Source of the DNA: Roseicyclus persicicus
GTDB lineage: Bacteria; Pseudomonadota; Alphaproteobacteria; Rhodobacterales; Rhodobacteraceae
Length of the DNA stretch: 64,000 nt
Direction: 5' to 3'
Assembly: GCF_012395815.1 (NCBI RefSeq)
Contig: NZ_JAAZQQ010000002.1
Span: forward strand, 1 to 64,000
Each line of letters begins with the position of its first letter. Position 1 is the stretch's first letter. Both the position numbers and the translations under genes were made by a program. The notes under the pieces were generated by a model, which worked only from the letters and a program-made list of their open reading frames with translations, made no database searches and was not told the DNA's origin. Positions 29,065 to 51,779 of the stretch are shown here, in pieces.

Positions 29065-29066
29065 AA

Positions 29067-29111: not shown

Positions 29112-29153
29112 ATACGTTTCGCTTGCAAATCACAACGGCAGGGAGACCGTGCC

Positions 29154-29492
29154 ATGAAGATGTCGTTCAGTTCCTTCCTTCGCCTGCTCGTCTCGGCGAT
29201 CCCCCTGATCGGCGCGAGCACGGCCACGTCGGCGCTTCCGATCCGCCCCGCCGAGCACCAGTCCTCGCAGTGGATGCAGACCCGCACCACCGACACCGCC
29301 GAGGCCTACACGCGCTTCATCCTCGAGAACCCCGACAGCCCGATGGTCGCCGAGGCCCGTGCGCGCCTCGCTACGCTGGCCCGGGTCGAGGCGGCGGTGA
29401 CCGCGCGGCTGCAGCCCGCCGTCGACCGGGCGCTCGAGTCCCCGCAGCAGGACGCTGCGACCGGCGGCTTCGGCCGCATCATGAACATCTGA
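29154..29492 (+). CDS. small secreted protein with one TPR-like segment
   Basis: This 112-residue protein has a signal peptide (MKMSFSSFLRLLVSAIPLIG, cleavage near TSA-LP). The mature part carries TAEAYTRFILENPDSPMVAE, which resembles one helical pair of the TPR/YbgF type. GGGAGA lies upstream of the ATG. It lies directly before the BcsS-like gene, 17 bases from stop to start, so a joint role in the envelope is likely. Function is unknown. Confidence 0.65.
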   Translation: MKMSFSSFLRLLVSAIPLIGASTATSALPIRPAEHQSSQWMQTRTTDTAEAYTRFILENPDSPMVAEARARLATLARVEAAVTARLQPAVDRALESPQQDAATGGFGRIMNI

Positions 29493-29509
29493 CGCGCGAG
29501 GATTCCGCC

Positions 29510-30217: not shown

Positions 30218-30240
30218 CCGACCCCGGGGGCCCGCCGCCC

Positions 30241-37673: not shown

Positions 37674-38501
37674 TCAGGCCCGCGAGACGCCGTCGCGCCC
37701 GAGGTGCAGCGGGGCGGTGGCGGCCACGGCCTCGGGGGTCAGGCCGCAGTCGAACACCACGTCCGAGCCCAGCGAGAACACCCGCATCTCGGGCCGGATC
37801 GCATCGGCGAGGAGGGGGCTGGGCGTGGCCAGCGTCAGGCCCTGCGGCCCGCCGCCGATCAGCAGCGGCGCGATGGCGACCTGCAGCCGCGTCATCAGCC
37901 CCGCCTCGAGGAACCGGGCGATGGTGATGCCGCCGCCCTCGATCAGCACGCTGTTCAGCCCCTCGGCCTGCAGCGCGGCGAGGATCTCGGCGGGGTCGAG
38001 CTGCCCGTCGCGCAGCGGCAGGTGCAGCGCGGTGACGCCGGCCGGGCGCGGCCGGTCGACCGCCTGCACGACGATCCGGCGCGCCCCGTCGTCGGCCAGC
38101 ACCGGCGCGTCGTCCGGCAGGCGGCCGCGGGGGTCGATCACGACCCGGGCCGGGTTTCGCCCGGCGCAGAGCCGCACCGTCAGCCGCGGGGTGTCGTGCA
38201 GCGCGGTGCGCACCCCGATGACCACCGCGTCGACCAGCGCGCGCATCCTGTGCAGATGCGCCAGCCCGTCCGGCCCCGACACGTCGCGCGCGTCGCCCGA
38301 TACGGTGGCGACCCGCCCGTCCAGCGACTGGCCGATCTGGCCGACCGTGACGGGCCCCACGTCGCGCCGGGCGAGCGGCCCGTAGAGGTCGAGCGCGGCG
38401 CGTTCCCCGGGGCTCCAGCGCCCGCAGCAGGTGCAGGCAAGGCCCTGCTGCACCGCGAGCAGGCGTTTCCAGACCCGGGGCGTGACGTCAACGAACTGCA
38501 T
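37674..38501 (-). CDS. RibD C-terminal-type reductase (pyrimidine/pterin reductase-like)
   Basis: This 275-residue protein has the RibD_C/DHFR-like fold in residues about 60-270: PVTVGQIGQSLDGRVATVSGDA, VDAVVIGVRTALHDTPRLTVR, NPARVVIDPRGRLP and LNSVLIEGGGITIARFLEAGL. Such enzymes use NADPH to reduce the ribosyl side chain of a GTP-derived diaminopyrimidine. The deaminase half of RibD is absent; instead there is a 50-residue N-terminal piece with a CxxC (CTCCGRW). It overlaps the methyltransferase gene by 14 bases and ends the GTP-cyclohydrolase operon, so it probably acts on that pathway's product. Confidence 0.8.
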   Translation of the reverse strand: MQFVDVTPRVWKRLLAVQQGLACTCCGRWSPGERAALDLYGPLARRDVGPVTVGQIGQSLDGRVATVSGDARDVSGPDGLAHLHRMRALVDAVVIGVRTALHDTPRLTVRLCAGRNPARVVIDPRGRLPDDAPVLADDGARRIVVQAVDRPRPAGVTALHLPLRDGQLDPAEILAALQAEGLNSVLIEGGGITIARFLEAGLMTRLQVAIAPLLIGGGPQGLTLATPSPLLADAIRPEMRVFSLGSDVVFDCGLTPEAVAATAPLHLGRDGVSRA

Positions 38502-39276
38502 GGCTGGACTCGGCTGGGGAAGGGCGGGGCAGGGCGAGAAGGTCGAGGTGCCCGATCCGGCACCGGGTCCGGTCGGCGGCGGCATGGCGGTCGCAGCCCC
38601 AGCCCGGGGCCTCCGGCGCGCCGGCCTCGTGTGCGGCGGCGGCGATGCCGTCGGTCAGCTCGCGCTGCAGCGCGGCCATGTCGGGGCCGAGCACCCAGGG
38701 GCTGTCGGCGGTCAGCACGTCGAACCCGGCGGCCCGCAGGATCGCGGCGCTGCGGTCGGCGGCATCGGGCCCCAGCGCCGGGCCAAGCCCCTTGTCGCCG
38801 CGCTGGTGGCGGTTGAAGGCCGCGGTCACGGCGGCGTCGCGCGGGTCGTCCGGCGTCCAGTCCATCCGGCCATCGTAGCTCAGCGCCGCGTAGAACGGCA
38901 CCCCCAGCCGGCGGGCGAGGCCCGCCACCCAGGCCTCGGGCATCAGGTCCAGCAGCGCCGAGGCCGTGACCAGCGTCGCGCCCGCCAGCGGCAGGGCGTC
39001 GAGGTCGCCGAGGTCGGCCTCAACCGCCTCGGCCCCGTCCCCCGCCGCCGCGGCCGCGATGGCCAGCAGCGCGGGGTCGTTGTCGACGAAGCGCCAGCGC
39101 GCGCCGGCCGGCAACAGCGGCGCCAGCACCCGCCAGGTCGCCCCGGTGCCGCAGCCCAGGTCGACGATCACCGGCGCGGGCCCCGCCGCCTCGGCCGCCC
39201 GCCGGGCCAGCACGGCGTCACGCGCCGCCCGGTCGGCGGGGTCGCGCAAGGCCAGCCAGTCGGCGGAAAAGCCCAT
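38488..39276 (-). CDS. class I SAM-dependent methyltransferase
   Basis: This is a 262-residue protein. SAM-binding motif I is VIVDLGCGTGATWRVL (near 36-50), the acidic residue after strand 2 is in WRFVDNDPALL, and a third motif is in VEADLGDLDALP. After the Rossmann core, LVTASALLDLMPEAW and YDGRMDWTP follow. The substrate is unknown. The gene is 3 bases downstream of the PTPS-like gene and overlaps the RibD-like gene, so a role in modifying a pteridine or pyrimidine intermediate is plausible by context. Confidence 0.82.
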   Translation of the reverse strand: MGFSADWLALRDPADRAARDAVLARRAAEAAGPAPVIVDLGCGTGATWRVLAPLLPAGARWRFVDNDPALLAIAAAAAGDGAEAVEADLGDLDALPLAGATLVTASALLDLMPEAWVAGLARRLGVPFYAALSYDGRMDWTPDDPRDAAVTAAFNRHQRGDKGLGPALGPDAADRSAAILRAAGFDVLTADSPWVLGPDMAALQRELTDGIAAAAHEAGAPEAPGWGCDRHAAADRTRCRIGHLDLLALPRPSPAESSHAVR

Positions 39277-39279
39277 TGA

Positions 39280-39675
39280 TCAGACCTCCGCCTCGTACCA
39301 GGCGCGGGCGACGTGGCTTTCGTGGAGCGTGATGCGCAGCTTCTTGACCCGGCCGCCGTCGGCCAGCTTGCCCGCGCGCACCCGGGTCGCCATCGCCTCG
39401 AAGATGTGGCCGCAGAGGAACTCGGTGGTGGTGAACTTGCCCGCGAACTCGGGCACCTCGTCGAGGTTCTTGTAGCGGAGCGGCGCCAGCGTCTCGGCCA
39501 GCGCCTCGGTCGCCAGCCCGATGTCCACCACCAGCCCGTGCTGGTCGATGTCGTCGGTGAAGAAGGCCGCGTCGACCGTGAAGGTGGCGCCGTGCAGCCC
39601 CTGGGCGGGGCCGAAGACGGGCGAGGGCAGGGAATGGCCGATCATGATGTGATCGCGGACTTCGACGGCGAACAT
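39280..39675 (-). CDS. 6-pyruvoyltetrahydropterin synthase/QueD-like protein lacking key residues
   Basis: This 131-residue protein has the T-fold pattern of PTPS/QueD: His14 (IGHSLPS), His28 (GLHGATFTVD), Asp51 (VVDIG), NLDEVPEF, TTTEFLCGHIFE and a C-terminal HES-x5-WYE. Normal enzymes have a His-Gly-His zinc motif and a nearby catalytic Cys. Here the second His is Ala30 and there is no Cys before it. Either the chemistry differs or the protein binds without catalysis. No FolE-type cyclohydrolase is nearby to make the usual substrate. It is the third gene of the ribA-like operon. Confidence 0.8.
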   Translation of the reverse strand: MFAVEVRDHIMIGHSLPSPVFGPAQGLHGATFTVDAAFFTDDIDQHGLVVDIGLATEALAETLAPLRYKNLDEVPEFAGKFTTTEFLCGHIFEAMATRVRAGKLADGGRVKKLRITLHESHVARAWYEAEV

Positions 39676-39684
39676 GGGGTCTCC

Positions 39685-40641
39685 TTAAGCAGCGTCGTAG
39701 CGGATGCGGTGGCAAAGCGTGTCGGGGTCCGACAGGATCGCGCCGTAGCGGGCGGGCAGGTCGGCAAAGGCGGTCTCGCCCGAGATCAGCGCGTCGAGCG
39801 CGGGGTCGGCCAGCAGCTCCAGCGCCTTGGCCATGCGGCGGGCGTAGCTCCAGCGGGGTGCGCGGGCGGGGGGCACATGGCCGACCTGCGAGCCGACGAG
39901 GCGCAGGCGGCGGCTGTGGAAGGCCCCGCCCAGCGGCACCGGCGTGGTGCCCGCGCCGTGCCAGCTGCCCTCGACCACGGTGGCCTCCTGACCGGCGCAG
40001 GCGATGGCGGTGGCCAGCCCCGGCGCCGAGGCCGACAGGTGCAGGACCACGTCGCAGTCCGCGGGCGCGTCACCGGGCAGGGCGAAGCGGCAGCCGAGCG
40101 CGGCGGCCAGCGGCGCGCGGGCGGGGTTGGTGTCGACCAGCGTCACCTCGGCCCCCGGCAGCCGCGCGGCGAGGTAGCCGGCCAGCGCGCCGACGACGCC
40201 CGCGCCGATCACGGCGATGCGGTCGCCCGGGCAGGCGCCGCTGTCCCAGACCAGCGTCAGCGCGGTTTCCATGTTGGCGCCCAGCACCGCGCGTTCGGGG
40301 GGCAGCGCGTCGGGCAGCGGCGTCAGCGCCGCCTCGGGCAGGCGGAACCGCGCCTGGTGCGGGTGCAGCGCAAAGACCGCGCGGCCCGCCAGCGCCCCCT
40401 CGGCCACGCGGCCGACGGCGCAGTAGCCGTATTTCACCGGGAAGGGAAAGGCGCCCTCCATCGCCGGGCCGCGCATCCGGTCATGCTCGGTCTCGGGCAC
40501 GCGGCCCTCGAACACCAGCCGCTCGGTGCCGCGGCTGATGCCGGAATACAGCATCTCCACCGCCACGCCCTCGCCCAGCGCGCCGGGGCGCGTCTCGGCC
40601 CGCCCGGGGCCGACACACCAGAGCGCGGGCGCCGTGGTCAC
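39685..40641 (-). CDS. MDR-family (zinc-type alcohol) dehydrogenase of the SGISRGTE group
   Basis: This is a 318-residue protein. The N-terminal domain has MLYSGISRGTERLVFEGRVP; the coenzyme domain has IAVIGAGVVGALAGYLAARL and an acidic VTLVDTNPARA, so NAD is the likely cofactor. The usual catalytic zinc Cys is replaced in SGISRGTE, as in relatives of BchC. The substrate is unknown. The start is a GTG that overlaps the ribA stop (GTGA) and defines a coupled pair. The much longer frame reading in from the ribA gene is spurious. Confidence 0.82.
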   Translation of the reverse strand: MTTAPALWCVGPGRAETRPGALGEGVAVEMLYSGISRGTERLVFEGRVPETEHDRMRGPAMEGAFPFPVKYGYCAVGRVAEGALAGRAVFALHPHQARFRLPEAALTPLPDALPPERAVLGANMETALTLVWDSGACPGDRIAVIGAGVVGALAGYLAARLPGAEVTLVDTNPARAPLAAALGCRFALPGDAPADCDVVLHLSASAPGLATAIACAGQEATVVEGSWHGAGTTPVPLGGAFHSRRLRLVGSQVGHVPPARAPRWSYARRMAKALELLADPALDALISGETAFADLPARYGAILSDPDTLCHRIRYDAA

Positions 40642-41804
40642 AGCAGGTGCCCCGACTTGGCGGCCTTGGTCGCAAGGTAATGGGCGTTTTGCGCCGTGCG
40701 GCCGACCCGGAGCGGCACGCGCTCCACCACCTCGATCCCCTGCGCGCCGAGGCTCGCCACCTTGGCCGGGTTGTTCGTCATCAGCCGGACCTGCCCGATG
40801 CCCATGCGGCGCAGGATCTGCGCGCCGATGCGGAAATCGCGCTGGTCGTCCTCGAAGCCGAGCCAGTGGTTCGCCTCGACCGTGTCCAGACCCGCATCCT
40901 GCAGCGCGTAGGCCCGCATCTTGTTGGCCAGCCCGATCCCGCGCCCCTCCTGGTTGAGATACAGCAGCACGCCGCCCGGCCCCGCCGCCATCGCCGCCAT
41001 CGCGCCGCGCAGCTGCGGGCCGCAGTCGCATTTCAGGCTGCCCAGCACGTCGCCGGTGAAGCAGGCCGAATGCAGCCGCACGGTGACCGGCCCGGACAGG
41101 TCGGGCGTGCCGATCTCGATGGCGTAGTGTTCGGCGCCGCCGTCGTCGGGGCGGAACACGTGCACCCGCCCCGCCGCCGAGGCGTCCATCGGCAGCCGGG
41201 CCGAGCTGACGCGGGTCTGGCTCCGGGCCTCGTCCAGCGCCCCGGTGATCTCGGCCAGCGCCATCGCCGTCAGGCCCAGCGCCGCGACCGCGCCGCCGTC
41301 GCGGCCGGCCAGCGGCACGGCGAGCACGGCGGGCACCACCTGCACCGTCTTGGCGATCTCGATCGCGGCCCGGTGCAGCGCGGTGCCGGCCTGCAGGATC
41401 GGCAGGCTGGCGCCGCCGGTCGGGGCGTCGGGCCCCGCCTGCCCGGCGACCGCCGCGAGCCAGGCCAGATCGGCCCCCGCCGGCACCCGCAGGCGCAGCG
41501 TGTCGCCCTGGATCGGCGGCAGCGCGCCCAGCGCCTCGGCCCGGCGCCGCGTCAGCACCAGCTCGGGCTGCCCGAGCGCTGTCATCGCGCCGTAACGTGC
41601 GTCGGTCACCGTCTCCACCAGGGCCACCAGGACCGAGTCGCCGCCGTCCTGCAGGATCACCGGCAGGCCCAGCCGCAGGTCGCCGCGGATGCGGTGCAAC
41701 CGCTCGATCCCGCGCGGGGCGAGGGCGGGCGTGACGACGTGCTGGTCGGGCCGGTCGGGCACCGCGATCGCGGATCCGGAGGCGGCAAGTGGGCTTGTCA
41801 GCAT
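40638..41804 (-). CDS. ribA: GTP cyclohydrolase II with N-terminal extension
   Basis: This 388-residue enzyme opens GTP to 2,5-diamino-6-ribosylamino-pyrimidinone phosphate. The zinc ligands are Cys248, Cys259 and Cys261 (C-x10-C-x-C). QEGRGIGL carries the catalytic Arg, and LMTNNPAKV is typical. The first 180 residues form a degenerate extra domain, as in some alphaproteobacterial RibA proteins, and are not a DHBP synthase. It heads an operon with the MDR dehydrogenase, PTPS-like, methyltransferase and RibD-like genes. No ribE or ribH is present, so it may serve a special pathway instead of bulk riboflavin. Confidence 0.88.
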   Translation of the reverse strand: MLTSPLAASGSAIAVPDRPDQHVVTPALAPRGIERLHRIRGDLRLGLPVILQDGGDSVLVALVETVTDARYGAMTALGQPELVLTRRRAEALGALPPIQGDTLRLRVPAGADLAWLAAVAGQAGPDAPTGGASLPILQAGTALHRAAIEIAKTVQVVPAVLAVPLAGRDGGAVAALGLTAMALAEITGALDEARSQTRVSSARLPMDASAAGRVHVFRPDDGGAEHYAIEIGTPDLSGPVTVRLHSACFTGDVLGSLKCDCGPQLRGAMAAMAAGPGGVLLYLNQEGRGIGLANKMRAYALQDAGLDTVEANHWLGFEDDQRDFRIGAQILRRMGIGQVRLMTNNPAKVASLGAQGIEVVERVPLRVGRTAQNAHYLATKAAKSGHLL

Positions 41805-41952
41805 GGCAGACCTGTGTTCCCTGTCGAACCCCGCTATCTAGGGCGGTGGCCGCGCTGGCAAGGGTGTCCGCGTCGTGTCGCTGCGGCGTCGCGGGCTGGA
41901 CGCGCGGATCGCCGCGCTATCTCTGGGCGAATGTGTCGGAAAGGGTGAGGAC

Positions 41953-42678
41953 ATGGAGCGCTGGCTCGGTCTCGCAAGGTCGCTCGTGATCTATCACAAT
42001 CCCGCGACCGTGCGGGCGTGGCGCCGCTTTTATGGGCAGATCCTGCGCCCCGGCGACCTGGTGATCGACGTGGGCGCCCATGTCGGCACGCGGACCCGCG
42101 CGATGCGGCGGGCCGGCGCCCGCGTCGTGGCGCTGGAACCCCAGGCGCTGTTCGCGCGCTACCTGCGCCTGACCCTGCCGCGCGACATCGTGCTGATCGA
42201 GGCGGCGGCCGGCGGTGCCGAGACGGTGGCGCGGATGGCGGTGTCCTCGCGCCACCCCACCGTGTCGTCGCTGCAGGCGGCCTTCGTCGATGCGGCCCCG
42301 GCGGCGCCGGGCTTCGGCCATGTGCGCTGGGACCGGACCGAGGAGGTCCGGATGGTCACGCTCGACGGGCTGATCGCGCGGCACGGGGTGCCCGCCTACG
42401 TCAAGATCGACGTCGAGGGGTTCGAGATCGAGGTGCTGTCGGGCCTGTCCCGGCCGGTGCCGATGCTGTCGGTGGAATACCTGCCCGGGTTCGCCTCGCT
42501 GACCACCCGTGTGATCGCCCGGCTGGAGGAGCTCGGCCCCTACCGCTTCAACCCGGTGGTGGGGGAGCGGTCGGGCTTTCTCTGGCCCGACTGGCGCGAC
42601 GGGGCGGCGGCGCGCGAGTGGCTGGCGGGGCTGCCCGCCGACGCGGCCTCGGGCGACCTGTTCGCGCGGCTGCCCTAG
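41953..42678 (+). CDS. FkbM-family methyltransferase
   Basis: This is a 241-residue protein. SAM motif I is DLVIDVGAHVGTRTRAMRRA, followed by VVALEPQALFARYLRL. The family-specific VTLDGLIARHGVPAYVKIDV and EGFEIEVLSGL are present. FkbM-type enzymes O-methylate hydroxyls, often on glycans or lipids. GGTGAGGAC precedes the ATG at 41953. It is the only plus-strand gene inside the cluster and its stop shares the palindrome CTAG with the stop of the opposite inositol-monophosphatase gene. Confidence 0.88.
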   Translation: MERWLGLARSLVIYHNPATVRAWRRFYGQILRPGDLVIDVGAHVGTRTRAMRRAGARVVALEPQALFARYLRLTLPRDIVLIEAAAGGAETVARMAVSSRHPTVSSLQAAFVDAAPAAPGFGHVRWDRTEEVRMVTLDGLIARHGVPAYVKIDVEGFEIEVLSGLSRPVPMLSVEYLPGFASLTTRVIARLEELGPYRFNPVVGERSGFLWPDWRDGAAAREWLAGLPADAASGDLFARLP

Positions 42679-43454
42679 CCGCGGACCGTCGCGGCGAAGG
42701 CCGGGAACAGCGCCTGCGTGGCCGCGATCACGTTGCCCAGATCCTCGGGGCGCTCGCCCGGCGCCCAGCCCGCCACCTCGGCCCCGGCCTCGCGCAGCAG
42801 CACCAGCCCCGCCGCGATGTCCCAGGGCTGCAGCCGCCGTTCCCAGAACCCGTCCAGCCGCCCGGCCGCGACATAGGCGAGGTCGAGCGCCGCAGCCCCC
42901 ATCCGCCGCACCCCGGCGCAGCGTGGCATCAGGCGGGCGATGTCGGCGGCGTGGTCGTCGATATGGGCCATGCCGCCGAAGGGAATGCCGGTGCCGAACA
43001 GCGCGCGCGACAGGTCCGCGGTGTCGGCGGGCGCCATCGGCTGCCCGTTCAGCGCCGCGCCCCGTCCGCGGCAGGCGGCGAAGGTCTCGTCCTTCACCGG
43101 GTCGTGCACGACGCCCACGGTCAGCACGCCCGCCTCCTCCAGCGCGACGGACACCGCCCAGTGGCCGATCCCGCGTAGGAAGTTCGTGGTGCCGTCCAGC
43201 GGGTCGACGATCCAGCGCCGTCCGCCGCCGCCGGCCGCCCCGGTCTCCTCGCCGAGCCAGCCGTCGCCGGGCCGCGCCGCGGCGATGCCGGCGCGCAGGT
43301 GGTCCTCGGCGGCGCGGTCGGCCTCGGACACGAAGTCGCCGGCGCGCTTGGTGTCGACCCGCAGCCGCCCGCGCGCGGCCCAGTGCCCGAGCAGGATCAC
43401 GCCGGCCTCCCGCGCGAGGCGCTCCGCCAGCGCGAGGTCGTCCTCTGCAGCCAT
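42675..43454 (-). CDS. inositol monophosphatase family phosphatase
   Basis: This 259-residue enzyme belongs to the Mg2+-dependent IMPase family. Motifs are GDFVSEADRAAED, LGEETGA, WIVDPLDGTTNFLRG and WERRLQPWDIAAGLVLLREAG, giving all metal ligands (Glu, Asp, Asp, Asp). It may act on inositol phosphate, on 3'-phosphoadenosine phosphate (CysQ-like) or on another sugar phosphate. In this cluster, with a CDP-alcohol phosphatidyltransferase, removal of phosphate from a head-group precursor is plausible. The start at 43454 is 4 bases after the GT4 stop codon. Confidence 0.9.
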   Translation of the reverse strand: MAAEDDLALAERLAREAGVILLGHWAARGRLRVDTKRAGDFVSEADRAAEDHLRAGIAAARPGDGWLGEETGAAGGGGRRWIVDPLDGTTNFLRGIGHWAVSVALEEAGVLTVGVVHDPVKDETFAACRGRGAALNGQPMAPADTADLSRALFGTGIPFGGMAHIDDHAADIARLMPRCAGVRRMGAAALDLAYVAAGRLDGFWERRLQPWDIAAGLVLLREAGAEVAGWAPGERPEDLGNVIAATQALFPAFAATVRG

Positions 43455-43458
43455 CGCC

Positions 43459-44514
43459 TCAGGCCCCCGCCGCCACGCGGTCGAGCACGCCCGCCACCAC
43501 CCGCGCGGTGTCCTCCCAGCCCGGCAGGGCCGCCCCCGCCGCCGCCGAGGCCGCCGCCATCGCCGCCCGCGTGCCGTCCTCGTCCAGCACCCGCGCCAGC
43601 GCCCCGGCGAAGGCCGCGGGGTCGTCGGGCGGCACCATGAGGCCCGCCCCCGGCGCCACCGTGTCGGGCACCGCGCCTGTGGCGCAGGTGACGATCGGCA
43701 GGCCATGCGCCATCGCCTCGTCGAACACGATGCCGTAGCCCTCGTAGCGGGTCGCCAGCGCGAAGACGGCGGCCTGCCCGTAGAGCCGCGCCAGTTCCGC
43801 GCCGGGGACGCGGCCGGCCAGCCGCACCCGCCCGGCCAGCCCCGCCTCGGCCACCAGCCGCGACAGGAGCGCGGCGTGCCCCGCATCCAGCGCCGAGCCG
43901 ACGATCACCGCCTGCCAGGGCCGGTCCGCCAGCTGCGCCAGCGCGCGGATCAGCACGTCATGCCCCTTGCGCGGCACCTGGATGCCCACCGACAGGATCA
44001 GTGGCGGATCGGCCTTGTCCACCCGCCCCATCGGCCGGTCGGTGCCGGGCCGCGCGATGGTGATGCGGTCGGCGGGGACGCCGTAGTCCGACACCAGCAG
44101 CGCGGCGGTGTGCGGGCTCGGCACGAGGACATGGGCGGCCAAAGCGAGGTTGTCGCGCTCGGTCCGGTACAGGTGGTCGCGGCGGTCGGCGGGCAGGCTG
44201 CCCTCGTGCGCCAGCGGGTGGTGCACCAGCGCCACAATGGGGGCGGCCATGCCGGTCAGCACCGCGCGGTCCATCGCCCCCATCGCCAGCCCGTCGATGA
44301 TGACGGGGCAGCCCGCCGGCACCTCGGCGAGGCGGGCCGCGGCCGCGGCCATGTCGGCCGGGGTCGGATCGGGGAACGACCCGCCCAGCGCCACATGCGC
44401 CACCTCGCGGCCCAGCGCGCGCAGCCCGCACAGCAGGCGACGGTCGTAGATGTAGCCCCCCGTCAGGGTCATCAGGTCGCCGGGGACGGCGAGGGCGGCG
44501 CTCGGGGCGGTCAT
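43459..44514 (-). CDS. GT4-family glycosyltransferase
   Basis: This is a 351-residue GT-B enzyme. ILSVGIQVPRKGHDVLIRAL starts the second Rossmann domain, and ATRYEGYGIVFDEAMAHGLP has the Glu-x7-Glu signature (EGYGIVFDE). The N-terminal GDLMTLTGGYIYDRRLL is typical of a glycosyltransferase subgroup with an acceptor-binding Gly-rich loop. The donor is unknown. It is the fourth gene of a minus-strand series that starts with the CDP-alcohol phosphatidyltransferase; it most likely glycosylates the lipid or head group made there. Confidence 0.88.
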   Translation of the reverse strand: MTAPSAALAVPGDLMTLTGGYIYDRRLLCGLRALGREVAHVALGGSFPDPTPADMAAAAARLAEVPAGCPVIIDGLAMGAMDRAVLTGMAAPIVALVHHPLAHEGSLPADRRDHLYRTERDNLALAAHVLVPSPHTAALLVSDYGVPADRITIARPGTDRPMGRVDKADPPLILSVGIQVPRKGHDVLIRALAQLADRPWQAVIVGSALDAGHAALLSRLVAEAGLAGRVRLAGRVPGAELARLYGQAAVFALATRYEGYGIVFDEAMAHGLPIVTCATGAVPDTVAPGAGLMVPPDDPAAFAGALARVLDEDGTRAAMAAASAAAGAALPGWEDTARVVAGVLDRVAAGA

Positions 44515-44609: not shown

Positions 44610-45542
44610 TCACGGCTTGACCGGGCGCGCGCCGGTGGCGACGGCCGCCGCGACGGCCCCGGGCAGCGCCGCCACCAGCACGGCGACACCGAAGGCGACG
44701 CTGGCCGCCAGGCCCTCGGCCGCGGTCGCGCCGGCCAGCGGCAGCAGCACCGCGGCGGCCCCCTCGCGCAGGCCCCAGCCGCTGACCGTGACCGGGACCA
44801 GCATGGTGAACAGGATCAGCGGCACCAGCACCAGCGCGGCCCCGGGCGCCAGCGCCACGCCGACGGCGGCGGCGCAAAGCGCGAAGGCCGCGATGTTGAG
44901 GAGTGCCGTGGCCGCGCTCATCGCCGCCTGCCGGGTCCGCACCCGCGGCGCCCACACGGCCCGCAGGAAGGCCGCTCCGGTGCCCGCCATCGCGCGGCCC
45001 GCCCGCCCCGGCAGCCGCGGCCCCGCCAGCGCCAGCGCCAGCACCACCGCAACCGCCCCCGCAAGGCCCGCCAGCACCGGCGGCAGGAGCCAGCCCGGCC
45101 AGTCGAAGCCCCCGGGCACCGCCAGCGTGCCGGCCACCGCCCCCGCGAACAGCAGGAGCAGCGCCGCCTGGCCCGCCAGCCGCTCGAACAGGACCGCCTG
45201 CCCCGAGGCCAGCAGCCCCGCCTGCGCCCGCGCCCGGACCGCCCGGCCCGCATCGCCCAGAACGCCCCCCGGCAGGGCCTGGTTCACGATCTGCGACAGG
45301 TAGTATTCCCGCAGCGCCGTGCGCCGGTCGAGCACGATGCCCAGCTGCCCCGCGGTCAGCCGCCAGCGCAGCGCCGACAGCACCGTCTGCGCCGTCAGCG
45401 CCGCCAGTGCCGCCGCCAGCCACAGGGGCTGCGCCGCGGCGAGGTGGCCCAGGGCCGCCCGCCCGTCGGCGACATGCCACAGCACCGCAAGCAGGCCCAC
45501 GGCCACCCCGACCTGCACCACCCGGACCAGCGGCCGCGCCAT
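44610..45542 (-). CDS. UPF0104/LPG-synthase-TM-like integral membrane protein (flippase-like)
   Basis: This is a 310-residue protein with about seven hydrophobic segments. LSALRWRLTAGQLG, YYLSQIVNQALPGGVLGDAGRAVRA and the later LIPFT-like VPLILFTMLVPVTVSGWGLREGA match the lysylphosphatidylglycerol-synthase transmembrane / UPF0104 family. Members are proposed to flip lipids or lipid-linked glycans across membranes. The soluble transferase domain of true MprF is absent. The gene lies between the GT4 and sulfatase-fold genes. Confidence 0.82.
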   Translation of the reverse strand: MARPLVRVVQVGVAVGLLAVLWHVADGRAALGHLAAAQPLWLAAALAALTAQTVLSALRWRLTAGQLGIVLDRRTALREYYLSQIVNQALPGGVLGDAGRAVRARAQAGLLASGQAVLFERLAGQAALLLLFAGAVAGTLAVPGGFDWPGWLLPPVLAGLAGAVAVVLALALAGPRLPGRAGRAMAGTGAAFLRAVWAPRVRTRQAAMSAATALLNIAAFALCAAAVGVALAPGAALVLVPLILFTMLVPVTVSGWGLREGAAAVLLPLAGATAAEGLAASVAFGVAVLVAALPGAVAAAVATGARPVKP

Positions 45543-45546: not shown

Positions 45547-47178
45547 TCAGCCCTCCCCGCCCGGCGCGGCGGTGGTGAAGCTCTGCAGGATGCGGTCGCG
45601 CATCCGGTCCATCGGCACCACGGTCGCGTCCGCCGGCGGGATCAGGCCGGGGGCAAGGCCCCAGTCCGCGGCGGCGCGGTCGACCAGGTGGGCCGGGCCG
45701 ATCACGTGGATCGGCACGTCGGGCCGGTCGTCCAGCGCGACGAAGCCCGCCGCCTGGTGGTCGCCCAGCACGATCATCAGCGGCGGGTCGTCGGCGTGGC
45801 GCGCGGCGTAGGACAGCACCACCTGCAGCGCGTAGTCGATGGCCAGCCGGTATTGCGCCCGCACCCGGTCGCGGTCGCGCCAGACCACGTCGGGCGGATC
45901 GCCCGCCGCCGCCATCGCGTCGAAGACGCGCCCGTCGCCGAGGACGTCCCAGTCGACCATCTCGGGCACAGGCACCCAGGGCGCGTGGCTCGACCCGGTG
46001 GCGAGCTGGATGAAATACGGCCGGTCATCGGGCCGCGCGTCGCGCAGCAGGCGGTCCATCGCGGCGAAGGTGAACTGGTCGGGCATCGTGACCCAGTTGA
46101 AGTTGCGCCCGGCATAGCCGAGGTCGGCCGCGGCGAGGATGGTCTCGAACCCCATCACGCTGCTTTCCGGCCAGTCGAGCGTGATCTGCGGCATCACGGC
46201 GGCGGTGTGGAACCCGGCCCGCGCGGCGAGGTGGTAGAGCGTCTGCCGGTTCGAGGCGAGCACCGCGCCATAGCGTGTCTGCCCGTCGACCCAGAGCCCG
46301 TTGGCAAAGGTGGAATGCGCCAGCCAGCTCTGCCCGCCGCGGGTGGGCGAGGCGAGCAGGCCCGAGGCCATGGCAAGGCCGCGCGCGGCCAGATCGGCCT
46401 CGCCCGCGGCCAGCGTGGCGCGGTGCAGGTCGGCGAACAGCGGCGTGTCGAGGCTGGTGCGCCCGTAGCTTTCCACGAAGACGACGATCACGTCGCGGTC
46501 GATCGCGTCGAGAAGCCCGGCACCGCCGGCGAAGGGGTCGGTCGCGGCGGCGGCCTCGAAGGCGCGCAGGTCGGCCAGCGTCGCCTGCGCCATCAGCAGC
46601 CGTTCGAGGCCCACGCGGGCGGTGAAGGCCGCGCCGGGGGGCTGCGCCGGCAGGTCCCAGCGGCCCATGGTGTCGCCGACCTCGGCGGTGGCGACCCCGG
46701 CCGCGGCGATGGCCGCCACCGCCGCGCCGGCCCGGAGCACCGCCCGCCCCGGCCGCGCCGCGGCCCAGACGCCGGTTGCCCACCACAGCGCCGCCGCGGC
46801 CGCGGCCACGGCCAGCAGCGCCGCCGCGGCCGCCAGCACCGTCAGCGCCGGCCCGATCGCACCCGTCAGGAGCCGCATCCCCGCCTCGACCAGCGCGAGG
46901 TCGGCGACCGGGTTGAAGCCCCGTGCCAGCGCCGTGAACATGGCGTAGTCCGCCGCCTTGAGCACCGCGATCAGCAGGAGAAGCGCGACGAGCCCCGCGC
47001 GCAGGGCGCGCCCGGCCCGCCCGTCGCCCACCGCCATCAGCCCCAGCAGCACGGCCGGCCATTCCAGCGGGAAGGCCGCCAGCGCGCCCCAGGTCATCGC
47101 GTCGGGGTGGTTGGGCTGCACCAGCACGAGGTAGAGGATCAGGGCGGCCAGACCCAGCCGCAGGGCGGTGCGCGTCAC
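45547..47178 (-). CDS. sulfatase/alkaline-phosphatase-superfamily membrane enzyme
   Basis: This is a 543-residue protein with about five transmembrane segments in residues 1-200, then a periplasmic sulfatase-fold domain. VIVVFVESYGRTSLDTP holds the metal-binding Glu and the Thr nucleophile, as in LtaS and phosphoethanolamine transferases. STFANGLWVDGQ, SSHAPWVP and IVLGDHQAA add the remaining metal ligands. Such enzymes move phospho-head groups rather than cut sulfates. The GTG start overlaps the preceding stop (GTGA), coupling it to the CDP-alcohol phosphatidyltransferase. Confidence 0.82.
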   Translation of the reverse strand: MTRTALRLGLAALILYLVLVQPNHPDAMTWGALAAFPLEWPAVLLGLMAVGDGRAGRALRAGLVALLLLIAVLKAADYAMFTALARGFNPVADLALVEAGMRLLTGAIGPALTVLAAAAALLAVAAAAAALWWATGVWAAARPGRAVLRAGAAVAAIAAAGVATAEVGDTMGRWDLPAQPPGAAFTARVGLERLLMAQATLADLRAFEAAAATDPFAGGAGLLDAIDRDVIVVFVESYGRTSLDTPLFADLHRATLAAGEADLAARGLAMASGLLASPTRGGQSWLAHSTFANGLWVDGQTRYGAVLASNRQTLYHLAARAGFHTAAVMPQITLDWPESSVMGFETILAAADLGYAGRNFNWVTMPDQFTFAAMDRLLRDARPDDRPYFIQLATGSSHAPWVPVPEMVDWDVLGDGRVFDAMAAAGDPPDVVWRDRDRVRAQYRLAIDYALQVVLSYAARHADDPPLMIVLGDHQAAGFVALDDRPDVPIHVIGPAHLVDRAAADWGLAPGLIPPADATVVPMDRMRDRILQSFTTAAPGGEG

Positions 47179-47921
47179 GACCGGGTCCGCCACAGCCAGA
47201 GCACGTCGCGCCCGAAGGACCAGCCCAGCACCGCGGCCCCGCCGGCCAGGATGGCCACCGCGACAGGGCCCTGCACCACCGGCGCCTGCAGCGCGATCAG
47301 CGCCGCGATCTGCACCACGCAGGCGGCCTTGCGCCCGAAGCGGTCGGGCAGCGGCGCGAGGAGCCACGGCCAGACCGCGCCCGCGGCGACGAACACGTAG
47401 CGCGGCAACCCCAGCAGCAGCACCGCCGCGCCCACGGTTCCCGCGGCCCAGGCGTTGAGCGCCAGGATCAGTCCCAGCGCCGCGTCCACCTCCATGTCGA
47501 AGCGCGCCCCGAAGGCCGACACCCGGCCCTGCCGCCGGGCCAGCCAGCCGTCCGCCCCGTCGAGCGTCAGCGCCACCAGCGCCACGGCCAGCACCGCCCA
47601 GCCCGAGGCGGGCGCCACCAGCGGCGCCAGCAGCGCGGCGGTCAGCGCCAGCCGGGCCAGCGTCACCAGATTGGCCGCGCCGAGATCGGGGTGGGGGTAG
47701 CCCCGCCGCATCCCCGCGACGGCCAACGCGGCCCCCGCAAGGTGCCCCGCCAGCGCCACGCCCACGGGCGCCGGCGACGGGCCGCCCAGCGCCGCGGCCA
47801 GCGCCGCGACGGCGGGCGCCGCGGCCAGCGCGGCAAGCCCCAGGCCCGCCACGGGGCCGTGGCGCAGCGGCAGGGGCGCAGGGATGTGCGGGGCGGCAGG
47901 GGTGCGATCGAAGTCGGCCAT
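47175..47921 (-). CDS. CDP-alcohol phosphatidyltransferase family protein
   Basis: This is a 248-residue membrane enzyme with about six hydrophobic segments. The full signature D-G-x2-A-R-x8-G-x3-D-x3-D is present as LDGADGWLARRQ then GRVSAFGARFDMEVDA. It attaches a CDP-activated alcohol to a lipid-type acceptor. Upstream residues 1-70 hold an extra hydrophobic N-terminal part. It heads the minus-strand series of five genes (phosphatidyltransferase, sulfatase-fold, UPF0104, GT4, IMPase). The lipid made is unknown. Confidence 0.88.
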   Translation of the reverse strand: MADFDRTPAAPHIPAPLPLRHGPVAGLGLAALAAAPAVAALAAALGGPSPAPVGVALAGHLAGAALAVAGMRRGYPHPDLGAANLVTLARLALTAALLAPLVAPASGWAVLAVALVALTLDGADGWLARRQGRVSAFGARFDMEVDAALGLILALNAWAAGTVGAAVLLLGLPRYVFVAAGAVWPWLLAPLPDRFGRKAACVVQIAALIALQAPVVQGPVAVAILAGGAAVLGWSFGRDVLWLWRTRS

Positions 47922-48028: not shown

Positions 48029-48580
48029 ATGGACCAGACACGGTATTCCAACACGGCGCGCGGGCTGCACTGGCTGATGGCGGTGCTGATCGTGCTGACG
48101 GTGCCCGCCGGCCTCGTGATGGTGCAGGAGGGCATCAGCCGCGACCTGCAGAACGCGCTGTTCCTGTATCACAAGAACGTGGGCGTCCTGCTGCTGCTGC
48201 TGGTCGCCGTCCGTCTGGCGTGGCGCTGGCGCAACCCGCCGCCGCCCAAGCCCGCAAGCCTGCCGCAGTGGCAGGCGCGCATCGCCGAGGCGACCCACGT
48301 CGCGCTCTATGCCCTGCTCGTCGCGGTGCCGGTGGCCGGCTACGTCCGGGTCCGGGCGGGCGGTTTTCCGATCGAAAGCCTCGACGCGCTGGGCGTGCCC
48401 GCCCTTGTCCCGCGTTCGGACGCGCTGGCCGAGGTGGCCAAGACGATCCATTACGGCGCCGGTCTCCTGATCGCCGCCGTGATCGCGCTCCATGTCGGCG
48501 CCGCCTTGTTTCACGGCATCGTGAAGCGCGACGGCGTGTTTTCGCGCATGTGGCCGCCGCTCGGCGGTCGGGGCCGCTGA
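48029..48580 (+). CDS. cytochrome b561 family protein
   Basis: This is a 183-residue, four-helix membrane protein that moves electrons through two b hemes. Candidate heme ligands are His in RGLHWLM, LYHKNVG, EATHVALYALL and IALHVGAALFHG, in the usual order for the YodB/CybB type. YRVRAGG-like loops precede helix 4. It is divergent from the CDP-alcohol phosphatidyltransferase gene and stands upstream of opgH. Confidence 0.9.
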   Translation: MDQTRYSNTARGLHWLMAVLIVLTVPAGLVMVQEGISRDLQNALFLYHKNVGVLLLLLVAVRLAWRWRNPPPPKPASLPQWQARIAEATHVALYALLVAVPVAGYVRVRAGGFPIESLDALGVPALVPRSDALAEVAKTIHYGAGLLIAAVIALHVGAALFHGIVKRDGVFSRMWPPLGGRGR

Positions 48581-48684: not shown

Positions 48685-50271
48685 ATGTCAGTGGCAGAGA
48701 TCACATTCCGCCCCGTGCGGACGCGGACAGGCCTCGTGGACAGGCCCGGCTTTGGCTGGCTCATCGCGCATCTCGGGCTGACCCTGCTGGGCGCCGCGGC
48801 CATCGCCGCGGCCGTCGCGGTCGCGGTGACGGCCTGGACCCCGTCCGCCTGGGCGGCGCTGGCCCTGGTGACCCTCGGGGCGATCTGGATCGCCGGCGGC
48901 GCCGCGACCGCGCTGCTCGGCCTGCTGCAGCCGGCGGCGCCGGTCGCCCGGATCGAAGATGGTTGGCGCCCCTCGGGCCGCACTGCGCTGCTCGTGCTGC
49001 TGTGCGGCGAGGAGGCGGGCCCGCTCGCCACCCATCTCGGCGCGCTGCGCCGGGGCGCCGATGCGCTGGGCCTCGGCGACGGCGCCGCCGACATCTTCGT
49101 GCTGTCCGACACCCGTGACCCCGCCCGCATCGCCGCCGAGGAAGAGGCCCTCGCCCCCCTCGTCGCCGCGGGTGCGATCACCTACCGCCGCCGCGCCGAC
49201 AACGTCGGCCGCAAGCCGGGCAACATCGCCGACTGGCTGGCGACCCGGTCGGACGGCTACGCCTACATGCTGGTGCTCGACGCCGACAGCCGGATGAGCG
49301 CGGGCCGCGTGCGGTCCCTGATCCACCGGATGGAAAGCCAGCCGCGTCTCGGCCTGCTGCAGGCGGGCATGGCGATGGTCCCGGGCCGGAGCCTGTTCGG
49401 CCGCCACCAGCGCCTCGCCTCGCGCCTGTTGTCTCACAACTTCGGCCGCGGGCTCGCGGCCTGGTCGGGCGAGGCCGGCAACTACTGGGGCCACAACGCG
49501 ATCATGCGCGTCGCCGCCTTCCGCAGCGCGGTGTCGCTGCCGGTGCTGTCGGGCCGCGCGCCCTTTGGCGGGCCGCCGCTCAGCCACGACTTCATCGAGG
49601 CCGCCTGGATCCGCCGCGCCGGCTGGGCCGTGGCGCTCGACCCCGACATGCGCGGCAGCGCCGAGGACGGGCCGCAGACGCTGGCCGAGTTCCACAAGCG
49701 CGACCGCCGCTGGTGCCAGGGCAACCTGCAGCACGTCCGACTGATCGCCGAGCCGGGGCTAGACCCGGTCAGCCGGCTGCACCTCGCCTCGGGCATCGCG
49801 AGCTACCTCGCCGCCCCGGTCTGGTTCGCGCTGGTGGGGCTGGTCGCCACCGGGTCGGTGCGGGTCGAGGGCGCGCTGCCGCTGGTCGTGGTGGCGGGCG
49901 TGCTGCTGCTGCCCAAGCTCTGCGCGCTGGGCCACTGGCTGGTGCGTGCGCGCACCGCGGCGCGCCGGGCGCTCATCCTGCGCGCCAGCCTGGGCGAGCT
50001 GGCGCTGTCCACCCTGATCGCGCCGCTGGTGATGGTGCGCCAGACCGCGGCCGTTCTGTCGGTCCTGTCCGGGCGCGACTGCGGCTGGAAATCCGGCCGC
50101 GCGCCGCGCCTGCGGGTGCCGGCGGGCGTGCCCGAGGCGGCGGTGGGCCTGGCGCTGGTGGCCGTGGCCGCCGCGACCGAGCCGGCCTCGTCGGCCGCGT
50201 GGCTCCTGCCCGTGGCGCTGCCGCTCCTGGGCGCGCCGCTCCTGCAGCGCCTGCTCGATCGGGGGGCATGA
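48685..50271 (+). CDS. opgH: glucan biosynthesis glucosyltransferase H
   Basis: This is a 528-residue inner-membrane GT2 enzyme that makes the glucose backbone of osmoregulated periplasmic glucans. Two hydrophobic segments near the N-terminus precede the catalytic domain: FVLSDTRDP, VGRKPGNIADWL, LVLDADSRM (metal-binding DxD) and HKRDRRWCQGNLQH (the processive RxxRW region). Membrane segments follow. Length is shorter than E. coli OpgH but normal for Rhodobacterales. It overlaps opgG by an ATGA and the gene order H-G is reversed relative to E. coli. Confidence 0.92.
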   Translation: MSVAEITFRPVRTRTGLVDRPGFGWLIAHLGLTLLGAAAIAAAVAVAVTAWTPSAWAALALVTLGAIWIAGGAATALLGLLQPAAPVARIEDGWRPSGRTALLVLLCGEEAGPLATHLGALRRGADALGLGDGAADIFVLSDTRDPARIAAEEEALAPLVAAGAITYRRRADNVGRKPGNIADWLATRSDGYAYMLVLDADSRMSAGRVRSLIHRMESQPRLGLLQAGMAMVPGRSLFGRHQRLASRLLSHNFGRGLAAWSGEAGNYWGHNAIMRVAAFRSAVSLPVLSGRAPFGGPPLSHDFIEAAWIRRAGWAVALDPDMRGSAEDGPQTLAEFHKRDRRWCQGNLQHVRLIAEPGLDPVSRLHLASGIASYLAAPVWFALVGLVATGSVRVEGALPLVVVAGVLLLPKLCALGHWLVRARTAARRALILRASLGELALSTLIAPLVMVRQTAAVLSVLSGRDCGWKSGRAPRLRVPAGVPEAAVGLALVAVAAATEPASSAAWLLPVALPLLGAPLLQRLLDRGA

Positions 50272-51779
50272 TGCAGCGCCGCACGTTCCTGCTCGGCACG
50301 GCGGCCCTGGCCGTCCTGCCCGCGATCCGCCTGGCCGCCCAGCCCGCCGCGCCCGCCTCGCTGATCGAGGTGGCCCGTGCGCTGGCCGCCGCGCCCTATC
50401 TGCCGCCCTCTGGCCAGCTGCCGCCGCCCTTCGCGGGGCTGACCTACGACGCCTATCGCGGCATCCGGCCGATCCCCGGCCGCGCCGCGATGCTGCCGCT
50501 CGGCGACGACTACGCGCTGGACCTGCTGCCGCCCGGCCTGTTCTTTCCCGACCCGGTCGAGATCGACCTGCCGGACGGCGGCGGCGGCTTTGCGCAGCTG
50601 CCGCTCACGCCGGCGCTGTTCGACTTCGAGCCGCGCTACTTCGACGCCATCCCCGACACCGCGCCCGGCGCGGGGTTCTCGGGCCTGCGCCTGCGGCATC
50701 CGCTGAACACGCCGGACGTCTTGGACGAGGTGCTGGTGGTGCAGGGCGCGAGCTACTTCCGCGCCATCGGGCAGGCGATGGTCTACGGGCTGTCGGCGCG
50801 CGCGGTGGCCATCGGCACCGGCGGCCCCGTCGCCGAGGAGTTCCCGCGCTTCACCCGGCTGCGCCTGCACCCGGCCGCCGACGGCGCGGTGCGCCTCGAG
50901 GCGGTGATCGACAGTCCCTCGCTCGCCGGGCACATGGACATGGTGCTGCGCCCCGGCGCGGACACCGTGACCGAGATCGCGGTGACGCTGATGCCCCGGC
51001 GCGAGATCGCCGACATCGGTGTCGCGCCGCTGACCTCGATGTACCTCAAGGGGCCGATGCGCGCCGCGGTGTCCGACGACTTCCGCCCGCGGGTGCATGA
51101 CAGCGACGTGCTGGTGATCGAGAACGGCGGCGGCGAACGGGTCTGGCGGCCCATCGCCAACCCCGCCCGGATCGAGACCTCGGCCTTCCTCGACGACGGG
51201 CCGGTGGGCTTCGGCCTGTGGCAGACGGCGCGGTCCTTCGAGGATTTCGAGGACAGCGAGGCGCGCTACCACGACCGGCCCTCGGCCCGGGTCGAGCCGC
51301 TGGAGGACTGGGGGCCCGGCGCGGTGATGCTGGTCGAGATCCCCACCGGCGACGAATTCATGGACAACATCGTCGCCTTCTGGCGCCCCGCCGCGCCGCT
51401 GGCCGCCGGCAGCGAGCACCGCTTTGCCTACCGCCTGACCTGGACCCGCGGCCAGCCGCTTGCCGGCACGGCGATGCCGGTCCGTCAGAGCCGCAGCGGG
51501 CGTGAGCACGACCGCCCCGGCACCCGCCGGTTCGTGGTCGATTTCGCCGGCCCGCCCGACGGGCTGGTCGCGGATGTGTCTGCTACGGGGTCGGCCGAGC
51601 TGATCGGCACCAGCCTGTTCCCGCTGCCCGAGGGGCGGGGCACGCGCGTCACCTTCCTGTTGACGCCGGGCACCGAGGACAGCATCGACCTGCGCCTCGT
51701 GCTGCGCGACGCGGGCGGCGCGGCGGCGAGCCCGGTCTGGCTCTACCGCTGGACCCGGGCGCGCGACGGCGGCGTCTGA
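50268..51779 (+). CDS. opgG: periplasmic glucan biosynthesis protein G/D
   Basis: This 503-residue periplasmic protein is required for osmoregulated periplasmic glucan formation, probably for branching or trimming. It carries a twin-arginine-type signal (MMQRRTFLLGTAALAVLP). Family landmarks are GLTYDAYRGIR, LPLGDDYALDLLPPGLFF, GASYFRAIGQAMVYGLSARA and PTGDEFMDNIVAFWRP. The first ATG overlaps the opgH stop; a second ATG follows at once. opgG and opgD paralogues are hard to separate; the Tat signal is more OpgD-like. Confidence 0.92.
   Translation: MMQRRTFLLGTAALAVLPAIRLAAQPAAPASLIEVARALAAAPYLPPSGQLPPPFAGLTYDAYRGIRPIPGRAAMLPLGDDYALDLLPPGLFFPDPVEIDLPDGGGGFAQLPLTPALFDFEPRYFDAIPDTAPGAGFSGLRLRHPLNTPDVLDEVLVVQGASYFRAIGQAMVYGLSARAVAIGTGGPVAEEFPRFTRLRLHPAADGAVRLEAVIDSPSLAGHMDMVLRPGADTVTEIAVTLMPRREIADIGVAPLTSMYLKGPMRAAVSDDFRPRVHDSDVLVIENGGGERVWRPIANPARIETSAFLDDGPVGFGLWQTARSFEDFEDSEARYHDRPSARVEPLEDWGPGAVMLVEIPTGDEFMDNIVAFWRPAAPLAAGSEHRFAYRLTWTRGQPLAGTAMPVRQSRSGREHDRPGTRRFVVDFAGPPDGLVADVSATGSAELIGTSLFPLPEGRGTRVTFLLTPGTEDSIDLRLVLRDAGGAAASPVWLYRWTRARDGGV

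Follow-up and report, generated by a model that had tools for sequence, protein, structure and literature searches.

A widely shared, uncharacterised bacterial gene set in Roseicyclus persicicus that may convert GTP into a pterin-type compound

Results

The locus described here lies in a window of 64,000 nucleotides, the whole stretch of Roseicyclus persicicus DNA that was analysed, and is a copy of an uncharacterised gene set found in many bacteria. From the enzyme families it encodes, we infer that its product is a small molecule made from GTP via diaminopyrimidine chemistry, as a preliminary description of the window had proposed. We tentatively favour, at somewhat less than even confidence, a compound that contains a 2-amino-4-oxo-pyrimidine ring and is both glycosylated and methylated; a pterin glycoside is the likeliest form, and it may serve as a cofactor or a cell-envelope compound. 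A literature search found no paper describing the gene set.

Layout of the locus

Five tightly coupled genes on the minus strand, encoding a GTP cyclohydrolase II (RibA2), an MDR-fold dehydrogenase, a PTPS-like protein, a methyltransferase, and a RibD-type reductase, had been proposed at 37674-41804, and Pfam searches and the junctions bear this out (Table 1): the RibA and MDR genes overlap by 4 nt and the methyltransferase and RibD genes by 14 nt, with gaps of 9 nt between MDR and PTPS and 3 nt between PTPS and methyltransferase. For the RibD-type gene, the start at 38501 was preferred over that at 38585, the same start motif being found in a relative. All five genes are real, but the list was incomplete, as a GT4 glycosyltransferase gene 1.7 kb beyond ribA proved to be a commoner partner of the set (130/157 loci) than RibA itself (73/157). 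All 13 families of the core and of a variable second ring are present in the window. MdoG, which follows them, was found in 1 of 80 named loci and in several Rhodobacteraceae loci.

Table 1. Genes of the locus and its surroundings, with positions in the window
Product	Placement	Coordinates	Strand	Evidence and remarks
RibA2, stand-alone GTP cyclohydrolase II	core	40638..41804	-	388 aa; PF00925 1.8e-59; PRK08815-like N-terminal part
MDR-fold dehydrogenase, BchC-like	core	39685..40641	-	318 aa; ADH_zinc_N only below its cut-off
PTPS-like T-fold protein, SCO6650 type	core	39280..39675	-	131 aa; PF01242 3.6e-21
Class I SAM methyltransferase	core	38488..39276	-	262 aa; PF13649 1.1e-7
Stand-alone RibD-type reductase	core	37674..38501	-	275 aa; PF01872 3.6e-36; ORF also open from 38585
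FkbM-family methyltransferase	second ring	41875..42678	+	PF05050 3.3e-13; 62/157 loci
Inositol-monophosphatase-family phosphatase	second ring	42675..43469	-	PF00459 3.6e-61; 46/157 loci
GT4 glycosyltransferase	core	43459..44514	-	PF00534 2.9e-30; 130/157 loci
Flippase-like LPG_synthase_TM membrane protein	second ring	44610..45542	-	PF03706 5.9e-26; 53/157 loci
Membrane protein with sulfatase-fold domain, LtaS/OpgB-like	second ring	45547..47178	-	PF00884 2e-9; start re-set; 57/157 loci
CDP-alcohol phosphatidyltransferase family protein	second ring	47175..47921	-	PF01066 2.7e-14; 74/157 loci
Cytochrome b561	second ring	48029..48580	+	PF01292 2.4e-32; 54/157 loci
MdoH-type glucan glucosyltransferase	second ring	48685..50271	+	NCBIfam MdoH 508.7 bits, over cut-off; 43/157 loci
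MdoG periplasmic glucan protein	neighbour, membership uncertain	50268..51779	+	PF04349 8.8e-148; start re-set

In agreement with the preliminary description, no ribE, ribH, ribB, folE, or que gene was found among the 43 ORFs scanned with Pfam, which are part of the window's ORFs; QueC, QueE, and FolE, the partners expected at a preQ0 locus, were likewise absent from the scanned ORFs. A promoter scan gave no sigma-70-like sites and one terminator-like site, against 0.7 expected.

Recurrence and distribution

We fetched 157 loci, all picked by the PTPS-like gene, of which 154 are distinct (three duplicate pairs); misbinning or contamination may affect some of the records, e.g., an Aquiluna MAG (L079) and a Pseudohaliea scaffold (L074). 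The 80 named loci served to build the profiles, so that only the 40 later loci, the 29 Rhodobacteraceae loci, and the plasmids are independent of them. Besides GT4 and RibA, the profiles found MDR and the methyltransferase in 149 of the 157 loci each and RibD in 120; RibA was missing from 84 and RibD from 37, in some cases because contigs were cut. MDR, PTPS, GT4, methyltransferase, and RibD occurred all together in 95 of the 154 distinct loci, and the exact five genes first described in 62 of them, in line with the expected conservation. The 40 loci held out from profile building gave similar figures (MDR 38, GT4 38, methyltransferase 36, RibD 30, RibA 14), while MDR, PTPS, methyltransferase, RibD, and RibA were found in none of 20 control regions, where a single GT4 was the sole match among the families. 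The set recurs and the controls are otherwise empty, indicating that the association is not due to chance. Distances among the core proteins were also correlated (Mantel r of 0.52 to 0.85 versus null maxima up to 0.22), a correlation to which shared species ancestry contributes.

The set ranges from Proteobacteria to Actinomycetota, with examples in Streptomyces, Microbacterium, Thiodictyon, Agrobacterium, and Rhizobium plasmids and on plasmid pOB3b1 of Methylosinus trichosporium OB3b, and one scan gave at least 578 relatives. In the order-wide tally, 31 of 292 genomes matched, 30 of them clearly, as the match in G158 (8.3e-4) was discounted for weakness; across the phylum, 28 of 398 matched, including the ordinary QueD of G882. 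Twenty plasmid records carry the locus, and two Streptomyces plasmids carry an orphan PTPS-like gene. Two small AT-rich genomes have a compact form consisting of creatininase, MDR, PTPS, GT4, methyltransferase, RibD, and RibA, and the locus is retained in genomes of 1.4-1.6 Mb. A phage collection gave no match.

Among the other neighbours, ABC-transporter genes lie near 22 of the 80 named loci, scattered in placement and generic in appearance. A neighbour cluster seen in 33 of the 80 was discarded as spurious ORFs running antisense over PTPS and MDR. An NRPS gene at 31119-37537 follows the RibD stop by 136 nt on the same strand and might form with the five genes a hybrid NRPS-pteridine pathway like that of pepteridine, whose Photorhabdus locus, as described in PMC5384830, also has a PTPS homolog and NRPS parts close together. 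However, the NRPS left one weak tblastn match (37% over 111 aa) in the 157 loci, and pepteridine, according to the same description, has a FolE-type start (GTP cyclohydrolase I) together with an E2-NRPS fusion, whereas the unit here has no FolE. We therefore rejected the hybrid as highly improbable and regard the NRPS, which is not conserved beside the locus, as lying outside the unit.

The PTPS-like protein

The closest solved relative of the PTPS-like protein by sequence, and the sole close one, is SCO6650 of Streptomyces coelicolor (PDB 3d7j; 1.6e-48). An AlphaFold model (pLDDT 95.3) supports the T-fold, with a TM score of 0.95 to 3d7j (53% identity) and about 0.76 to QueD. SCO6650 is labelled uncharacterised, and the Streptomyces neighbourhoods compared here are those of other Streptomyces plasmids. 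The structure paper of 2008 reportedly found the protein to be free of zinc, to lack the catalytic triad, and to be inactive as a PTPS; SCO6655, near SCO6650, is a GTP cyclohydrolase II.

The protein shares with QueD/PTPS (COG0720) the T-fold, the first two zinc histidines (His14 and His28, in 157/157 rows), and Glu119 near the C-terminus, which we take to be the pterin-anchoring site (155/157 rows, the other two being gaps), but it lacks the catalytic Cys/Glu before HGH and the third zinc His. Position 24, the site of the catalytic Cys, is Ala in 156/157 rows, with Cys only in L227, an ordinary QueD, and the third zinc position is Ala30 in 156/157; His9 is kept in 145 rows and His121 in 136. 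As given in PMC5041015, the PTPS-I, II, and III motifs require C or E plus HGH. We thus rejected a QueD/PTPS identity for the protein, the only PF01242 match in its own genome. In routine annotation the PTPS-like protein of the unit appears as a queuosine enzyme, contrary to these residues.

RibA2 and the RibD-type reductase

RibA2 has an intact zinc motif (HSACFTGDVLGSLKCDCG) and QEGRG, and the zinc Cys triad and QEGRG of GTP cyclohydrolase II are conserved in 57 rows. As anticipated, the genome has riboflavin genes elsewhere: ribD, ribE, ribBA, and ribH on contig C1, and on C5 a second stand-alone ribA with the full motif, 56% identical to that of the locus. In ribBA the zinc Cys is missing from the RibA half, indicating that riboflavin synthesis needs a stand-alone RibA. 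The suggestion that the locus RibA is dedicated to this pathway is supported for R. persicicus, with its second intact ribA, but not everywhere, as among the GTP cyclohydrolase II matches of G547 and G624 no copy other than the locus RibA has an intact motif.

These exceptions, together with the degenerate ribBA and the absence of FolE type I from the R. persicicus genome, could point to a side branch of riboflavin or folate metabolism that acts as a backup or takes up overflow. We nonetheless rejected this as quite improbable, given the genome's own riboflavin genes and FolE2; to our knowledge, the established pathways of riboflavin and folate synthesis need no GT4, methyltransferase, or MDR. 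The unit shares the RibA and RibD reductase families with the riboflavin pathway, catalytic motifs intact, but has no RibB, RibE, RibH, or deaminase, and Pfam recognised no deaminase domain family in the RibD-type protein. The best solved relatives of that protein are 2azn and 6p8c, the latter named 2,5-diamino-6-ribosylamino-pyrimidinone-phosphate reductase. NCBIfam, however, scores the protein higher as a bacterial RibD C-terminal domain than as the archaeal reductase (119.6 versus 97.9 bits; 118.4 versus 94.5 in L237, a locus of the compact seven-gene form), which leaves reduction before deamination tentative.

GTP cyclohydrolase II, RibD, and methyltransferases are also where the toxoflavin and pseudoiodinine clusters start, as outlined in PMC9911603, and the product could instead be a glycosylated azapteridine or lumazine-type (toxoflavin-like) secondary metabolite rather than a pterin. 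Such a product would fit the patchy occurrence of the set (30 clear matches in 292 genomes of the order; 20 plasmid records). Secondary-metabolite loci are patchy and often plasmid-borne. Yet the psd genes named in PMC9911603 (glyoxalase/dioxygenase, SUMF-type, WD-40) have no counterparts in the unit, which lacks their N-N-bond candidates, while those genes do not include MDR, PTPS-like, or GT4 proteins; SUMF-type and WD-40 proteins were not among the recurrent neighbours of the unit. In addition, the PTPS-like protein retains the Glu by which a 2-amino ring would be recognised, and the persistence of the unit in genomes of 1.4-1.6 Mb speaks for a cofactor-like role. We consider a toxoflavin-like product a lesser possibility.

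MDR, GT4, and the proposed pathway

The MDR gene lies directly upstream of PTPS in 124 of 149 MDR-bearing loci. Its predicted structure is confident and resembles polyol dehydrogenases and TarJ, while its best sequence matches are weak, TarJ ranking 40 by E-value. Zinc-dependent MDR alcohol dehydrogenases carry Cys/His-Glu ligands of the catalytic zinc; at these sites the consensus reads YSGISRGTE and KYGY, with no invariant Cys. A weak bchC match (37.8 bits) and the reaction-centre genes of R. persicicus might suggest a product serving phototrophy. However, reaction-centre genes occurred in 17 of the 30 genomes of the order that carry the locus versus 102 of the 262 that lack it (Fisher p 0.077); the other 13 carriers have none, and the locus is also present in Streptomyces and Microbacterium. 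This link was rejected, and we give it hardly any credence.

GT4, usually found between PTPS and the methyltransferase outside Rhodobacteraceae, is similar to many GT4 enzymes. The pteridine glucosyltransferase 5zer is a weak and distant match (4.9e-5); a pterin as the acceptor of GT4 is conjectural. The cyanobacterial and Chlorobium enzymes glycosylate biopterin-type pterins, as reported in PMC5683033; in contrast to those systems, the unit starts from GTP cyclohydrolase II.

For the favoured pterin glycoside, RibA2 would open GTP to 2,5-diamino-6-ribosylamino-pyrimidinone 5'-phosphate, which the RibD-type reductase would convert to the ribityl form without deamination. MDR would then oxidise a side-chain hydroxyl; oxidation at C2' would give a ketone closing on the 5-amino group, yielding a dihydropterin without FolE. 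GTP cyclohydrolase I reaches the same ketone intermediate by an Amadori shift. The zinc-less PTPS-like protein would bind or steer the ring, GT4 would add a sugar, and the methyltransferase a methyl group. In larger genomes, the membrane genes of the second ring could serve attachment to, or export through, the envelope.

The second ring

The second ring is variable and comprises the CDP-alcohol phosphatidyltransferase, the flippase-like protein, cytochrome b561, the sulfatase-fold protein, and others. The inositol-monophosphatase-family gene was found in the Rhodobacteraceae and named sets and in 0 of the 40 held-out loci. Some of these genes could be the main actors: the CDP-alcohol phosphatidyltransferase, flippase-like, and sulfatase-fold proteins might build a lipid- or glucan-linked envelope molecule with a GTP-derived head group. 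Consistent with this, the CDP-alcohol gene (74/157 loci) and the flippase-like gene (53/157) were each found in 0/20 controls and occur also in Actinomycetota, the latter in Streptomyces and Microbacterium, and a true MdoH, present in 43/157 loci, adjoins b561 in the window. However, many loci have no envelope genes, the CDP-alcohol gene is missing from about half, and none of these genes occurs within 20 kb of the locus in the two small AT-rich genomes. We rate an envelope molecule of this kind as a lesser possibility.

Discussion

The unit is widespread, spans two phyla, and is kept in genomes of 1.4-1.6 Mb, suggesting that it should make something useful. Rather speculatively, and with no great expectation, it could represent a third entry into pterin biosynthesis, in which GTP cyclohydrolase II, a RibD-type reductase, and MDR replace the Amadori rearrangement without FolE; the pterin would then receive a sugar and a methyl group and, in larger genomes, be linked to the envelope, cytochrome b561 acting as its redox partner. 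The result would be a so far unrecognised extracytoplasmic pterin cofactor across Proteobacteria and Actinomycetota that small AT-rich genomes keep. With a core of five to seven genes, the unit is small enough to be reconstituted directly. A 2026 review (PMC13259868) counts the identity of the pterins active in the periplasm, and their route to it, among the open questions; if the product of this gene set is a pterin, it would bear on both.

Gene content of the locus and its host

The window is the start of contig C3 in a nearly complete 3.71-Mb genome that also carries photosynthetic reaction-centre genes. Judged by its PTPS-like protein, the host was nearest, among the named matches listed, to Roseibacterium sp. 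SDUM158017 (95%), which places it within the Rhodobacteraceae group. Analysis of open reading frames, families and start junctions bore out the preliminary description of five tightly coupled genes. Further genes adjoin them (see the table), among which the start of the sulfatase-fold gene and the CDP-alcohol gene overlap by 4 nt.

Features of the window and the ribBA gene elsewhere in the same genome
Feature	Position	Strand	Remark
RibA2, MDR dehydrogenase, PTPS-like protein, SAM methyltransferase (MT), RibD-type reductase	37674-41804	-	the five genes
FkbM methyltransferase, inositol-monophosphatase-family protein (IMPase), GT4 glycosyltransferase, flippase-like LPG_synthase_TM protein (LPG_TM)	within 41.9-51.8 kb		adjoin the five genes
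Membrane sulfatase-fold protein, CDP-alcohol phosphatidyltransferase, cytochrome b561, MdoH, MdoG	within 41.9-51.8 kb
MdoH and MdoG periplasmic-glucan genes	48685-51779		adjoin cytochrome b561
NRPS pair	31119-37537	-	directly downstream of the operon
NRPS A-T protein	35729-37537	-
NRPS C-A-T-TE protein	31119-35735	-
GT61, GT2 and BcsS-like genes	20456-31125		suggest a polysaccharide locus
Hint-domain protein	5211-6233
Hint-domain protein	11760-13094
Phage-type integrase	15535-16707
ribBA, contig C1 (stretch L068)	13314-14444		GTP cyclohydrolase II half without the zinc Cys

Conservation of the unit across genomes

Genomes with the PTPS-like protein numbered 31 of 292 in the order (one match too weak to count), 45 of 385 in the class and 28 of 398 in the phylum; the phylum figure includes an ordinary QueD. 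A scan of named genomes gave at least 578 confirmed relatives, the best 80 of which were taken as named loci and used to make family profiles. Together with 29 Rhodobacteraceae loci, 8 plasmids and 40 loci from further genomes, which were held out, this gave 157 loci examined with surroundings of 20 kb or similar; 20 stretches out of the same 40-genome set served as controls.

Profile searches of the 157 loci found MDR and MT in 149 each, GT4 in 130, RibD in 120 and RibA in 73, along with CDP-alcohol (74), FkbM (62), sulfatase-fold (57), b561 (54), LPG_TM (53), IMPase (46) and MdoH, near the unit in 43. The 40 held-out loci had MDR and GT4 in 38 each, MT in 36, RibD in 30 and RibA in 14, with a second ring of CDP-alcohol (17), MdoH (11), b561 (9), sulfatase-fold (8), LPG_TM and FkbM (7 each) and IMPase (0). 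The control stretches yielded one GT4 and no other profiled family, and all 13 profiled families were present in the window. Three duplicate pairs left 154 distinct loci, 95 of which had the complete MDR-PTPS-GT4-MT-RibD core; RibA, MDR, PTPS-like, MT and RibD, the five genes of the preliminary description, stood together in 62. MDR was the direct upstream neighbour of PTPS in 124 of the 149 loci having both. Pairwise distances of the core proteins correlated (Mantel r, 0.52 to 0.85; null maxima up to 0.22 in 200 permutations each), to which the common descent of the hosts contributes. The NRPS pair, considered as a part of the unit, was rejected; it was not conserved with the operon, having a single weak match in the 157 loci.

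The unit is present in more than one phylum. In Rhizobium sp. SL42, genes for sulfatase, LPG_TM, FkbM, CDP-alcohol, ribA, MDR, PTPS, GT4, MT, RibD and cytochrome b form an uninterrupted block. Plasmid p1 of Streptomyces fungicidicus encodes CDP-alcohol, MDR, PTPS, GT4, MT, LPG_TM, creatininase and RibA, with no RibD found in the stretch examined, and S. globisporus encodes CDP-alcohol, MDR, PTPS, GT4, RibD, creatininase and RibA. Comparable sets occur in Microbacterium and Thiodictyon. As counter-examples, Arthrobacter showed MDR, PTPS and GT4 only, and two Streptomyces plasmids carry an orphan PTPS-like gene of the SCO6650 type (the S. coelicolor homolog) without any other unit gene.

A compact seven-gene form was observed in two small AT-rich genomes, G450 (1.6 Mb; locus GC, 26%) and G547 (1.4 Mb; 28%), at loci L237 and L238. 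It consists of creatininase, MDR, PTPS, GT4, MT, RibD and RibA, with none of the others among the 13 profiled families within 20 kb. A creatininase-family protein was found in 11 of 157 loci versus 0 of 20 controls. It matched the creatininase and MftE models below cut-off and ArfB more weakly; the single creatininase gene of the window genome lies outside the locus. According to a published account, a creatininase-family protein performs the formamidase step of riboflavin synthesis in Sinorhizobium (PMC9478397), and a role after GTP opening would fit by analogy.

Properties of the encoded enzymes

The PTPS-like protein, modeled with confidence (pLDDT, 95.3), closely matched SCO6650 (PDB 3d7j) in sequence (1.6e-48) and fold (TM, 0.95); QueD and PTPS were the next fold matches (TM, about 0.76). 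Across a 157-row alignment, His14 and His28 were invariant and Glu119 was retained, but the catalytic Cys and the third zinc His were replaced by Ala in 156 rows, the sole exception (L227) being an ordinary QueD without other unit genes. One review assigns particular signature motifs to each PTPS subfamily and calls the function of PTPS-V unclear (PMC5041015).

The RibD-type protein of the window had no deaminase family match in Pfam. Its best solved relatives were 2azn and 6p8c, and NCBIfam scored it higher as a bacterial than as an archaeal RibD reductase domain. The MDR model (pLDDT, 93.9) has a fold like those of idonate, xylitol and sorbitol dehydrogenases and of TarJ, the last with a TM of 0.78 both ways and rank 40 by E-value. 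TarJ acts at C2 of ribitol phosphate. The classical zinc ligands were absent from the MDR consensus. GT4 matched many GT4 enzymes, a pteridine glucosyltransferase weakly among them.

Relation to riboflavin and folate metabolism

The operon was described as lying outside any riboflavin or folate locus; ribD, ribE, ribBA and ribH are on contig C1. FolE2 was present in the genome; neither a type I FolE nor a second PTPS was found there. Each of the 17 locus-bearing genomes tested had two or more RibA matches. Both stand-alone RibA copies of the window genome, on contig C5 and in the window, keep the zinc Cys. The ribBA match is degenerate in G547 and a further genome, G624, as it is in the window genome, so that in those two the locus RibA alone is intact. 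The unit thus draws on the common intermediate through a RibA that is either its own or shared.

A putative route from GTP to a glycoside

Our best-supported claim, in its general form, is that the unit very probably encodes a dedicated GTP-to-glycoside pathway. We infer a more specific chain from GTP to a pterin, in which the ribosyl group would be reduced to ribityl and re-oxidized at C2', giving a ketone that would close to a dihydropterin. GTP cyclohydrolase I arrives at the same ketone via an Amadori rearrangement. Possible functions of the variable envelope ring are export, anchoring and redox recycling. The parts of the unit are known protein families, and the SCO6650 structure was released in 2008; a search of the open-access literature, mostly outside subscription papers, found no description of the unit. 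It resembles the loci of GTP-derived cofactors or natural products, and there is an open chance that it represents a new pterin route.
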